DNA from: Duncaniella sp.
GTDB lineage: Bacteria > Bacteroidota > Bacteroidia > Bacteroidales > Muribaculaceae
Assembly (NCBI GenBank): GCA_029061025.1
Contig: JAIDSW010000261.1
Span: forward strand, 1 to 32,494
Direction: 5' to 3'
Length of the DNA stretch: 32,494 bases
The notes beneath the pieces were generated by a model. The model was not told where the DNA came from. It searched no databases and saw only the letters and a list, made by a program, of their open reading frames with translations. The translations under genes and the position numbers were made by a program. This document shows positions 3,077 to 17,574 of the stretch, in pieces. Positions within the stretch are counted from its first letter, which is position 1, and each line of letters opens with the position of its first letter.

Positions 3077-6000
3077 TTATCTCACCACAACTTTTTCAGT
3101 CTGTGTGCCCTGGCGGCGGATGTAGAGGCCGGGGGCGGGAGTGCCGTTCACGCGGATACCCTGAAGATTGTAGTACTCGACGGGAGCATCGGTTACATTC
3201 ATCTCAACTTCGGCAATACCGCTGGGCGAGCTGAGTGTATAGCCTGAGAATAATGCGAATGTCTGATCGTCGGCAATATCGGCATCGACCATCAGCATCA
3301 CCCAACCCTTATTCTGCAGTTCATCGGGCAGAGTGTAGGTAGCCGAAGTCCAGCCGGCATTGTCAAAGGGCAGTTCGGCTATGAGCACCGGCTCATCCAT
3401 ACCGTAAGCCTGACCGAGCAGACGCATCTGAGCGGCAGCTATGCCACCCCAGTAGTTGAATGTAATCTGAGCGTCGTTGATGCCGGCAGTTGAGAATTTG
3501 GGTAGTCCCACCATAGCCTTGAGATCAGTCTGACCGTCGACAGTGTAACCCATCATAGCCAGGTTGCCGTCCACGGCGAATATGGGCGAAAGTATCGACG
3601 CGGGATTGCCGGGCATCCAGTAGGTGCCGTTATATTCATCGGAAGGACGCATGATGACGGTATTGTTCTCGGTAACTTCGTTGTCGAGATTATTTACCCA
3701 AGGCAACTTGACGGGGTCACCGATCGAGAAACCAGTACCTACTATGTGGTAGCTGATACCGGCTGCATTGTGAGCCATCACGCCGAGCGTGGTATAGAAC
3801 ATCTCCGTGCCGGCAGGCATGGTGAGGGTGTACTCGGTCTGATCCCAGCCTACTTCGTCGAGATATACCCATGAAGCATCGTAGTAGTAAACCTCGTAGT
3901 AGAACGAATCGCCTATAGCGCCCTCTTCCTCACCCTCGGTGGGGGGAGTCCACGTAAGTTTCACGGTGAGGTTATCCTCGCTCAGTTCGGCTTTGAAATT
4001 GTTGACGATATAGGGGCGCACTACGCCTGTATATACCAGCGCCGTCTCAGCTTTACCCACACGGCCGTCGACCGAGCAGGTAACCTTGATATTGTTGTAA
4101 TTCTGCGCAGTCTCGATTTCCACGGTCTGGAGCGAACCGGGAGCACCGGTCACCTGCGTGGAAGCCACGGGAGTGTTCTGAGCCGATGAGCTGCCCGGCA
4201 CGGTAGCTTCCGAAGCCACCTCGGCAGTGATCACGGTAGCGGCATCGAGCATGCGGCCGTCAGCTGTAGTGAGAGGCATCTTGAACGATACGGTAGCCGT
4301 CAGCGCGCCGTTGGCACCGGCAGTAGCCTGAAGATCGGTGACACCGGTGGGCACGTCGGCATCGCGGTCGCTGAGAGATATGTCGATATCCGATACGTGG
4401 AACGATACCGTCTTCGTCACGGCATGAATACCTATGTAATATACACCGGGCTCGGGCACGGCAAAGAATTCCTCGAGAATATCGCCGAGCATGTGCAGGC
4501 AGTGTGACTCGGGAATGATCACTCGGGTCATGGCCTCGACGGTGGGAGCAGTACCGATGCACACCTCATAAGTGCCGCGGGTATCGCTGTCGTGTACCAG
4601 ACCTATCTCCATTTCAAATCGGTAGGCCTTGGCGGTATTGTCGAAATTGATCGGAGGAAGTATGAGCCAGTCATCGCCGTTGTAACCTGAGGCAAATGCG
4701 GGGAAGCCCATCTCGTCGGCAGTGATGAAGCGCCATGTATCTTCCACGCCGCTCTCATACTTGTGTCCGTCGACGTTGATTGTGGTCATCAGTTCAATAT
4801 CCTTAGGCTCGGGACGGAAGTGGATCGGGCATTTAAGCGGTTCGCCGTAAGTGATGAAGTTGGACACGGCGGCCTCGGAAGTCTTGGAGTCGTAAGTTGC
4901 GGTGACCTCAGCCGTATAGCTGGTGAAGGGCTCGCCCTCGGGCAGCGTGTATTCGAGCGAAGTTTCGGAAGTGGTGCCCAGCACGGTGCCGTTGAGCTTG
5001 ACAGTGTAGGTCAGGGCATCATAATCCACATATCCACCGTGGACTGACGCCGCCGGTGCGGTCCAGGTCACTTTCGTCTCAGTCAGGTGCGCATCCGTGG
5101 GGGCAACGGGAGTATCCGAGCCTACCCAGCGGTGGAGCACCGAAGCTGCACTCTTGAGATTGCCTTTGGAGGCTACGAGCGAGAAGGTGCGGTTACCGTT
5201 GGCGACATCGGTAAGATCAACCGTAATTGCCGATCCAGCTGCGGCAGTGCCGGTGGAATATTTCACACCGTCGACAAGCATGGTCCAGTCGAGATCGCCG
5301 CTCAGGGTCTCACCGCCCTGGGTCTTTGAGGGCATTGTGCCGCTGAGCGTGCCGCTGAGCGATGCGCCGGTGAAGTCGCAGCTATTGATCACAGGCATTG
5401 CGGGCGCGCCTTCAGCAGCGTTGGGCTCGGTAGTGAGCAGAAACGCATATATCTCCGCCCCGGCACTCTTGCTCAACACTTCGGCCTTCTTATCGGCGAT
5501 ATTGAGTGATATAAATGCGGTGGATACATTGTTATAATAAGCATTCCACAGTATGGCGTTGAGCGACGGCACGTAGACCATACCGGTGATGACCCGTGTG
5601 TTCAGGCCGGGGATCTGCGAAGCCACGTTGAACACGTCGGTCTGCGCGCCCTCGGCATCGATCTGCACGAGCTTGCCGGCAGTGGTGATACCGTAGAAAA
5701 GGTCGTCTTGCTCGTTGTAACACAGCGACACGCACACATTGTCGAAGCTGACACTTTTCACTGATTTCACGTTGGTGAATCCGTCGGCATCGGCCACAGT
5801 GTAAGAGAATCCTTCGCCGTTGACATCGTAGCCGTAGCCGTACACCTTATCGTCGAGTGTGCGGTAGGCCGAGGTCAGAAGCACCGGGAGCATGCCGTCG
5901 GCTTCGTCGCTCAGGTCAATGTATTCGTTACGTACGATTTCACCCGTCGACAGGTCAAATTCCGTGTAGGCGTAGGCCATGAAAGCAGTCTCAAACTTAT

Positions 6001-6403
6001 AGCCGTCGAGGGCGCACACACGGCCGTCGCGATACCAGCCGGTATACACGCCCCATGCATTTGCCGTGAGGTAATCCTGCCACATGAATGTGCCGGAATC
6101 AGTCTTGCCGGGGTCGATGCTGTAGAAGCCGTTTTCCTTACCCACAAGATTAGTGTTGTTGAGATAGCCGAAGATCGTAGCGCCGTCAGCAGCCACATTC
6201 ATCGGGGCAAAGCTCACCGGTGCGGGTGCGCTCTTCATGAGCGGAGCCTTCACAAACTCTTGAGTTCCCTGATTCAGCACCGGCAGTTTGGTCGTCTGCA
6301 ACTCTGGATGCGTGAAAAGGCTTTCGGCCTCGGGAACTTTTACGCCGGCCGTCACCGCAATTGCGGCAGCCGCAGCCAGCGAAAGAAACAGTTGTTTTTT
6401 CAT
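3077..6403 (-). CDS. Large secreted multidomain protein (fibronectin III-like / choice-of-anchor-like) with Bacteroidetes C-terminal sorting-like domain
   Basis: 1108 aa; signal peptide MKKQLFLSLAAAAAIAVTA; repeated beta-sandwich modules; C-terminus YYNLQGIRVNGTPAPGLYIRRQGTQTEKVVVR. Confidence 0.85.
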   Translation of the reverse strand: MKKQLFLSLAAAAAIAVTAGVKVPEAESLFTHPELQTTKLPVLNQGTQEFVKAPLMKSAPAPVSFAPMNVAADGATIFGYLNNTNLVGKENGFYSIDPGKTDSGTFMWQDYLTANAWGVYTGWYRDGRVCALDGYKFETAFMAYAYTEFDLSTGEIVRNEYIDLSDEADGMLPVLLTSAYRTLDDKVYGYGYDVNGEGFSYTVADADGFTNVKSVKSVSFDNVCVSLCYNEQDDLFYGITTAGKLVQIDAEGAQTDVFNVASQIPGLNTRVITGMVYVPSLNAILWNAYYNNVSTAFISLNIADKKAEVLSKSAGAEIYAFLLTTEPNAAEGAPAMPVINSCDFTGASLSGTLSGTMPSKTQGGETLSGDLDWTMLVDGVKYSTGTAAAGSAITVDLTDVANGNRTFSLVASKGNLKSAASVLHRWVGSDTPVAPTDAHLTETKVTWTAPAASVHGGYVDYDALTYTVKLNGTVLGTTSETSLEYTLPEGEPFTSYTAEVTATYDSKTSEAAVSNFITYGEPLKCPIHFRPEPKDIELMTTINVDGHKYESGVEDTWRFITADEMGFPAFASGYNGDDWLILPPINFDNTAKAYRFEMEIGLVHDSDTRGTYEVCIGTAPTVEAMTRVIIPESHCLHMLGDILEEFFAVPEPGVYYIGIHAVTKTVSFHVSDIDISLSDRDADVPTGVTDLQATAGANGALTATVSFKMPLTTADGRMLDAATVITAEVASEATVPGSSSAQNTPVASTQVTGAPGSLQTVEIETAQNYNNIKVTCSVDGRVGKAETALVYTGVVRPYIVNNFKAELSEDNLTVKLTWTPPTEGEEEGAIGDSFYYEVYYYDASWVYLDEVGWDQTEYTLTMPAGTEMFYTTLGVMAHNAAGISYHIVGTGFSIGDPVKLPWVNNLDNEVTENNTVIMRPSDEYNGTYWMPGNPASILSPIFAVDGNLAMMGYTVDGQTDLKAMVGLPKFSTAGINDAQITFNYWGGIAAAQMRLLGQAYGMDEPVLIAELPFDNAGWTSATYTLPDELQNKGWVMLMVDADIADDQTFALFSGYTLSSPSGIAEVEMNVTDAPVEYYNLQGIRVNGTPAPGLYIRRQGTQTEKVVVR

Positions 6404-16041: not shown

Positions 16042-17451
16042 TCAGAAGTGGCTGGAGCCGTCGAAGCAATGGGTGCACACCTTGCACTTGGGCAGGCCGA
16101 TAGCCTCGATGAGATCCTCGATGGTATTGAATTTCAAGGATGTGAGGCCGAAATGCTGACGCATACGCTCCACGAGCGCATTGTATTCAGGCGAGCCTGT
16201 AGTGGTGTAGGCTTCGAGATTCTTGTTGGGGTCGCCTTCCATTTCCTCGATAAGGCGGCGGGTGAGAAGTTCCATATCACTCTTTGACGATGTGAAGCCC
16301 ACATAGCGGCATCCATAGATGAGCGGGGGACAGGCGATGCGCATGTGCACCTCCTTGGCGCCGCAATCATAGAGCACTTTCACATTATCGTTGAGCTGCG
16401 TGCCGCGCACTATCGAGTCATCGCAGAAGAGAGCGCGCTGTCCCTTGAGCAGAGCCTTGTTGGGCACAAGTTTCATCTTAGCCACAAGGTCGCGCATCGA
16501 CTGGTCGGCCGGCATGAAGCTTCGGGGCCAGGTGGGGGTATATTTTGAAATCAGGCGACGGTAAGGCACACCTTTTCCGGCAGCATAGCCCAGAGCCATG
16601 CCTACGCCCGAATCAGGTATACCGCAAGCGCAGTCCACTTCGTTTTCATCGCTCAGCGCCATCTTGAAGCCCGACTTGAAACGCACGTCCTCCACATTGG
16701 CGCCCTCGTAGGTAGAGGTAGGGAAGCCGTAATAAACCCAAAGGAATGCACAAATCTGCATTTCCTTGCCCGGAGGCGTAAGCTGGCGCACCTCGTCGGC
16801 GGTCACCTCCACCACTTCACCCGGGCCGAGATCACGCACCACCTCATAATCGAGATTGGGTAATGAGGTCGATTCCGAGCACAGAGCATAAGCTCCATTC
16901 TTGTGGCCGAGGATGATGGGCGTGCGGCCGAGGCGGTCGCGGGCGGCGATGATAGAGTTCTCGGTAAGGATGAGCATGGAGCAAGAGCCCTTGATCTTGT
17001 CATATACATGCTTGATACCTTCCTCGAAAGTCTTTCCGCGGGTGATGAGCAGAGCTATCAGCTCGGTCTGATTAGTGTAGCCCGAACTTAGTTCGGCAAA
17101 ATGTTTTCCGTCCTCAAGCAGTTCCTTCTCAAGCTCGTCGAGGTTGCATATCTTGGCGATAGTCACGATTGCAAACCGTCCTAAATGAGAATTGATAATG
17201 ATAGGCTGTGGATCGGTGTCGCTGATTACGCCTATTCCCATATTCCCTTTGAACTTTGACAGCTCTTTCTCGAATTTCGTGCGGAAATAGGTGCTCTCCA
17301 GACTGTGGATGGAGCGACAGAACTTTTTTTCGACGTTGTCGAAGGTGGCCATGCCACCGCGACGGGTACCAAGGTGTGAATTATAGTCCACACCATAAAA
17401 CAGGTCATTGCGGCAAGCATCCTTGGATGCTACTCCGAAAAATCCTCCCAT
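16042..17451 (-). CDS. PurF-like protein (amidophosphoribosyltransferase family) with degenerate N-terminal glutaminase domain
   Basis: 469 aa; PRPP-binding motif ALFCDDSIVRGTQL; CGIPDSGVGMALGYAAGKGVPY. The N-terminus is MGGFFGVAS rather than Met-Cys-Gly. Confidence 0.9.
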   Translation of the reverse strand: MGGFFGVASKDACRNDLFYGVDYNSHLGTRRGGMATFDNVEKKFCRSIHSLESTYFRTKFEKELSKFKGNMGIGVISDTDPQPIIINSHLGRFAIVTIAKICNLDELEKELLEDGKHFAELSSGYTNQTELIALLITRGKTFEEGIKHVYDKIKGSCSMLILTENSIIAARDRLGRTPIILGHKNGAYALCSESTSLPNLDYEVVRDLGPGEVVEVTADEVRQLTPPGKEMQICAFLWVYYGFPTSTYEGANVEDVRFKSGFKMALSDENEVDCACGIPDSGVGMALGYAAGKGVPYRRLISKYTPTWPRSFMPADQSMRDLVAKMKLVPNKALLKGQRALFCDDSIVRGTQLNDNVKVLYDCGAKEVHMRIACPPLIYGCRYVGFTSSKSDMELLTRRLIEEMEGDPNKNLEAYTTTGSPEYNALVERMRQHFGLTSLKFNTIEDLIEAIGLPKCKVCTHCFDGSSHF

Positions 17452-17483
17452 AGTTATGTGTAAAAATTAAAAATTTTAAGGCG

Positions 17484-17491
17484 CAAAGTTA
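17484..17491 (-). promoter_or_regulatory. -7 box TAACTTTG for the PurF-like gene
   Basis: Reverse complement of caaagtta, about 33 nt upstream of the ATG. Confidence 0.55.
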
Positions 17492-17574
17492 GACAAAAAA
17501 TCCGACAAATTCACCAATAGAGAACAAAAATTTTTAACAAAATTATACAACTATGATTGTCAGAATTTTACCGA

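Follow-up and report, generated by a model that had tools for sequence, protein, structure and literature searches.

A widespread clade of PurF-like proteins lacking the catalytic cysteine, with a probable role in ammonia-dependent purine synthesis

In the textbook account, PurF commits the cell to purine synthesis in a reaction that uses glutamine. Here we describe a PurF-like protein, encoded in a 32,494-nucleotide stretch of DNA from Duncaniella sp. (contig JAIDSW010000261.1 of assembly GCA_029061025.1; the whole stretch is referred to below as the window), which has lost the residues of glutamine hydrolysis, retains those of the phosphoribosyltransferase (PRTase) half and belongs to a single multi-phylum clade, some of whose members are the only PurF of their genomes. 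This protein is probably a glutaminase-dead, Fe-S-type PRTase that would make 5-phosphoribosylamine (PRA) from free ammonia and would be able to replace the glutamine-dependent PurF. The enzyme class is already known; what is new is a natural, widespread glutaminase-dead form acting as sole PurF. If common gut and sediment anaerobes do run this step on ammonia, nitrogen flow into purines would be wired differently in them, such bacteria would escape PurF inhibitors that are glutamine analogues, and metabolic models that assign them a glutamine-dependent PurF would be wrong. The family would also be a natural test of the function left to a glutaminase domain that stays strictly conserved after losing glutamine hydrolysis.

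Sequence anatomy of the window protein and its family

An earlier note on this DNA, made from the sequence alone, had drawn attention to the MGGFFG start of the protein and to the absence of Cys1, giving no strand; the open reading frame was confirmed on the minus strand, beginning with an ATG, and its translation begins MGGFFGVASKDAC. Only five codons (FLHIT), none of them Cys, separate this ATG from an in-frame TAA, so that no alternative start or propeptide could expose a cysteine, and a mis-called start or propeptide is ruled out as the reason for the missing Cys1, as that note had argued. In the window the gene is solitary, with an upstream region of its own and unrelated neighbours (a glycosyltransferase upstream, and downstream a KilA-N-domain gene on the opposite strand). 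Before the ATG, the element TAACTTTG (positions 17480-17495, minus strand) is similar to the Bacteroidetes -7 box (TAnnTTTG), and the gene therefore probably has its own promoter. Elsewhere in the window, a minus-strand ORF of 1108 aa (positions 3077-6403) has a weak fn3 match as its sole Pfam hit.

On sequence grounds the homology to PurF is clear. The purF equivalog model TIGR01134 matches the window protein over its full length with 188 bits, about half the cut-off of 350; the model also matches all 42 aligned members of the family, and none of the family matches listed in the genome searches reaches 350 bits. NCBIfam holds no dedicated model for the Cys-less PurF family, and no close member was found by sequence in the PDB, where B. 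subtilis and plant PurF structures do match. In the open-access literature searched we found neither a description of such a family nor fitness data for Bacteroides purF genes. The window protein is also matched over residues 1-391 (7e-52) by phrog_26846, a phage protein family of unknown function, which suggests that PurF-like genes may be carried by phages.

Table 1. Positions in the window of the gene for the Cys-less PurF-like protein and of its main features
Feature	Position	Strand	Remarks
Cys-less PurF-like protein, whole gene, 469 aa	16042..17451	minus	TIGR01134 match residues 3-465; B. subtilis PurF (1ao0/1gph) over 3-391 plus C-terminal CxxC
N-terminal Ntn/glutaminase-like domain, ~residues 1-230, predicted to be catalytically dismantled	16762..17451	minus	G2, L27, loop deletion after I76, T97-I98-A99, S123
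Family-specific Cys13, 97% conserved	17413..17415	minus	Not an N-terminal nucleophile; missing in several members
C-terminal phosphoribosyltransferase domain, ~residues 231-469, plus stop codon	16042..16761	minus	From alignment
Fe-S ligand Cys234 (QIC)	16750..16752	minus	125/125; aligned with canonical ligand
Family-specific flexible loop KYTPTWPRSF, residues 303-312	16516..16545	minus	Replaces canonical KNxYxGRTF
PRPP-binding motif DDSIVRGT, residues 344-351	16399..16422	minus	D345, S346, V348, R349, G350, T351 invariant in 125/125
Fe-S ligand Cys381 (IYGC)	16309..16311	minus	125/125
Fe-S ligands Cys459 and Cys462 (CTHC)	16066..16077	minus	125/125 each

The Pfam GATase_7 match spans residues 76-197. 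Alignment with canonical PurFs places Gly2 (N-terminus MGGFFG) at Cys1, Leu27 at the Arg of QHRGQ, TIA (97-99) at the oxyanion HNG and Ser123 at the Gln-binding Asp, while the Arg-bearing Gln-binding loop RYSTxG is deleted altogether, bearing out the earlier suggestion that the substrate-binding Arg and the oxyanion Asn/Gly had been lost. These losses are shared by the family: among 125 distinct sequences, position 2 is Gly in 112 and Ser in 13, with no Cys among them, all 125 lack the RYSTxG loop, the oxyanion Asn has become Val or Ile, and the Gln-binding Asp is gone. Since the loop deletion, Gly or Ser at position 2 and the four Fe-S cysteines occur in 125/125, the pattern is not due to chance. 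A conserved nucleophilic Cys elsewhere in the protein, which the earlier note had named as evidence against its reading, was looked for; the two candidates, Cys13 and Cys157 (also family-specific, 94% conserved), were rejected, neither being N-terminal.

The PRTase core and the PRPP-binding motif, described as intact in the earlier note, are kept, invariant or nearly so, in 125/125 family members, and the cysteines that the note had tentatively matched to the Fe-S ligands of Bacillus-type PurF do align with the canonical ligands. The flexible loop is the exception. It has changed as a block, with K303, T305-W308 and R310-F312 present in 125/125 distinct sequences and K303-W308 and R310-F312 invariant in 42/42 aligned members, a change that could affect the kinetics and perhaps even the product.

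Strong purifying selection acts on both domains, dN/dS being 0.01-0.07 in the three closest comparisons and at most 0.14 in a more distant pair whose dS is saturated; together with the intact frame, the former values rule out a pseudogene or decay. Of 110 near-invariant positions in the 125 distinct sequences, 49 fall inside the former glutaminase domain, and the family has (nearly) invariant motifs of its own, MxGxFG, DYxSHLGTxR and SDTDxQP, as well as KYTPTWxRSF in the PRTase flexible loop. The conserved positions and the low dN/dS argue that the N-terminal domain is not decaying and is kept for some function other than glutamine hydrolysis.

Distribution, phylogeny and genomes with a single PurF

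The conservation in Bacteroidetes anticipated by the earlier note was found, and it extends far beyond that group. Of the 61 relatives searched, 40 have a full-length Cys-less protein and one more has fragments of it; an even sample of 149 Bacteroidales genomes from across the order contains 46 carriers, and of 150 genomes in the family around one Lachnospiraceae MAG, 107 have the gene. When named genomes were scanned, full-length members were returned at 50-57% identity under the record labels Desulfobacterales, KSB1, Planctomycetota, Gemmatimonadota, Thermodesulfobacteriota, Lentisphaerota/Victivallaceae, Clostridia and Lachnospiraceae. A species-specific oddity is thus ruled out. In a tree with canonical and long Bacteroidota PurFs, the MGGFFG-type proteins, whose phylogeny the earlier note had proposed to examine, form one clade with support 100, which joins the canonical Fe-S PurFs apart from the long PurF. 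This rules out repeated independent loss of the cysteine: the Cys-less PurFs are one ancient clade spanning Bacteroidota, Bacillota, Desulfobacterota, Planctomycetota, Lentisphaerota and others. One short frame (G058:C88:24757-25107), in which residues 1-63 are joined to 414-469, is possibly an internally deleted remnant of a Cys-less gene.

The usual PurF of Bacteroidales (L053:1409-3298, P0002 and relatives) is a very divergent protein of ~630 aa with GNFN for HNGN, scoring far below the TIGR01134 cut-off; in L053 and L057 its gene adjoins a glutamine synthetase-like gene (assigned by eye). This long Cys-type PurF (KHECG...) occurs in 130 of the 149 Bacteroidales genomes and is absent from 19, some of which carry a canonical PurF. 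In searches for canonical TIGR01134, long-PurF and Cys-less-family proteins, at least 14 well-assembled Bacteroidales genomes had no PurF-like protein except the Cys-less one. These genomes were drawn across the order (G037, G039, G108, G122, G129, G132, G138, G144, G153, G185), from the near relatives of the window (G006, G001) and from among family members (G031, G033), and they are 98-100% complete except for G001 (91%). All 14 encode PurD, PurH and a protein resembling PurM, which in most of them scores below the model cut-off. By length and match pattern, their remaining TIGR01134 matches look like GlmS or other class II amidotransferases, the identity of GlmS having been read directly in the window's own genome only.

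As to whether the window's genome also encodes a Cys1-type PurF, a check suggested by the earlier note, none was detected in the draft, which is 87% complete and in which PurD was likewise not detected. Its 99%-identical neighbour G006 (99% complete) likewise has no PurF besides the Cys-less protein, but does encode PurD, PurH and a PurM-like protein. Absence of any other PurF had been listed by the earlier note among the outcomes counting against its reading; found in close relatives, it argues instead that the Cys-less protein does the job of PurF, and it restores no glutaminase.

Across the order sample the Cys-less gene is found in 11 of the 13 genomes without any Cys-type PurF vs 35 of the 136 with one (Fisher p = 4e-5, a value that is optimistic because the genomes are related). 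On the protein tree at least nine changes are needed to account for the sole state, and supported branches force five of these. Within one genus, the Cys-less gene alone is present in G039 and the long PurF alone in G140; in another, G065 has both PurF types and G153 the Cys-less gene only. Ten Lachnospiraceae also show a Cys-less match only, a count resting on PurF matches in genomes that have no completeness values (G191 and up). Most of the genomes are MAGs, so that a missing gene can be a gap, yet the sole-PurF pattern recurs independently.

Proposed role and competing explanations

Further evidence comes from gene neighbourhoods. In the Clostridia MAG L139, where no other PurF was found, the gene order is purE, purC (its match falling below the cut-off), Cys-less gene, purM, purN, and L140 shows this order up to the contig limit (purE-purC-Cys-less gene-purM). 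Muribaculaceae and related loci have purL on the same strand, its end ~16 to 140 bases before the Cys-less gene; these loci lie largely within one supported clade, so that the linkage, which may be a single old event kept in that clade, counts as one event and the Clostridia operon as a second. Other neighbours vary. PepT-like genes follow the Cys-less gene in Bacteroides-like genomes, and ThiE-like and Prs-like genes lie downstream of it in rumen Bacteroidaceae (all assigned by eye); at L100-L105 and L108, a ThiE-like gene of ~187 aa overlaps or abuts its downstream end and is followed by a PRPP synthetase-like gene, both again assigned by eye. In the Lachnospiraceae MAGs L135 (6001-10685) and L137 the Cys-less gene directly precedes hisZ-hisG-hisD, a linkage rejected as a general feature, being seen at only 2 of 30 sampled Lachnospiraceae loci, and in a Planctomycetota MAG hisF is convergent with it.

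A protein that keeps the PRPP site and the cluster, has lost the glutaminase residues and is the lone PurF beside the remaining pathway enzymes would most simply make PRA from free ammonia. NH3-dependent PRA synthesis is an established activity of PRPP amidotransferase (PMC12017579), and E. coli PurF Cys1 mutants lose activity with glutamine and keep that with ammonia, according to PMC3261824, citing Mei and Zalkin 1989. In the scheme we propose, where PRA synthesis, ammonia as substrate and the role of the N-terminal domain are all inferred from sequence anatomy and genome content, the protein would be a Bacillus-type (Fe-S) PurF that has permanently lost glutamine hydrolysis, and its PRTase half would bind PRPP and use ammonia from solution to form the first intermediate of the purine pathway, PRA. 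The former glutaminase domain would have been kept by strong selection as a structural or allosteric part, candidate roles being allosteric nucleotide control, oligomer structure and ammonia entry. In ammonia-rich anaerobic habitats such an enzyme could stand in for the glutamine-dependent PurF; in genomes with both, it would probably be an ammonia-using alternative, though it may instead have some other PRPP-linked role. The ammonia-dependent PurF considered in the earlier note has thus gained strong, if indirect, support from the sole-PurF genomes that hold the pathway and from the pur operons and purL adjacency. More tentatively, the clade may be the sole, obligately ammonia-using purine entry enzyme in many gut and sediment anaerobes, its glutaminase domain rebuilt for a new selected role such as ligand sensing or ammonia reception, with MGGFFG, DYxSHLGTxR and KYTPTWxRSF as the relevant motifs.

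The purL loci bear on an unlikely alternative, namely that the protein is a PRA synthase fed ammonia in trans by a separate glutaminase such as the domain of PurL, so that purine synthesis would stay glutamine-dependent. The PurL encoded directly upstream at many loci does carry its own glutaminase domain (PurQ-like match, residues 1004-1225), and an N-terminal domain under purifying selection could serve as a docking surface; however, no conserved neighbour across the family is a dedicated glutaminase, the purL linkage is confined to a few clades, and the solitary window gene has no such partner beside it.

The regulatory paralogue also considered in the earlier note, a pseudo-enzyme that would sense PRPP, nucleotides or redox via its Fe-S cluster, possibly in a mixed oligomer with Cys-type PurF, and would make no PRA, seems to us quite unlikely. 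Pseudo-enzymes typically show glutaminase loss of this kind, and a Cys-type PurF accompanies it in 35 of the 46 carriers of the order sample, but the PRPP-site residues and Fe-S cysteines are invariant, the purF slot of the Clostridia pur operon is filled by the Cys-less gene, and the protein is sole PurF in genomes that keep the pathway genes. As a pure role it is disfavoured in those genomes, while it could still apply where a Cys-type PurF coexists.

Still less probable is a neofunctionalised PRTase acting on another amine or acceptor, e.g., in histidine, thiamine or cofactor metabolism. The nearly invariant KYTPTWxRSF loop and the new N-domain motif DYxSHLGTxR, and the linkages to his genes and to ThiE-like and Prs genes, would fit such a role, but these linkages are rare, and it leaves the purine linkages and the sole-PurF genomes unexplained.

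That PRA arises without any PurF in the sole-PurF genomes, from enzyme side reactions or spontaneously from ribose-5-phosphate and ammonia (a reaction that does yield PRA non-enzymatically in vitro, and Salmonella purF mutants reportedly form PRA independently of PurF), the Cys-less protein being irrelevant, is highly improbable, since it predicts pathway genomes without any PurF, whereas all forms were absent from only 2 of 149 genomes, both at the 95% completeness threshold (G070, and G145, which has a PurD fragment only), and genomes without a Cys-type PurF are enriched in the Cys-less gene. In the abstract of PMC3485032, Salmonella purF mutants are described as needing purines, with a difference 'but under some growth conditions'.

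Comparison with known systems

B. subtilis PurF (PDB 1AO0, 1GPH) is a full-length homologue with which the PRTase residues, the PRPP motif and the four Fe-S cysteines align; unlike it, the Cys-less protein has no N-terminal Cys or propeptide and no Gln-binding loop, its oxyanion residues are replaced, and its PRTase flexible loop has been re-engineered. The long Bacteroidota PurF (P0002) is likewise of PurF type, occurs in the same order and is presumably a glutamine-dependent PurF, but it is larger, keeps KHECG, in which a Cys follows a short propeptide, along with HNRGQ and GHLRYST, and forms a separate clade that is not closely related.

A PurF-like protein without the nucleophile Cys has a precedent in Mlab_0150 of Methanocorpusculum labreanum, a paralogue with Ser in its place (PMC3261824). 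That protein is described there as having arisen, in this one archaeon, by recent duplication of its own PurF, whereas the Cys-less family is an old multi-phylum clade. The E. coli Cys1 mutants cited in the same paper (Mei and Zalkin 1989) are alike in having lost the use of glutamine and kept ammonia-dependent PRA synthesis, which for the Cys-less family would be expected by analogy; they differ in being laboratory point mutants, whereas the family is a natural lineage.
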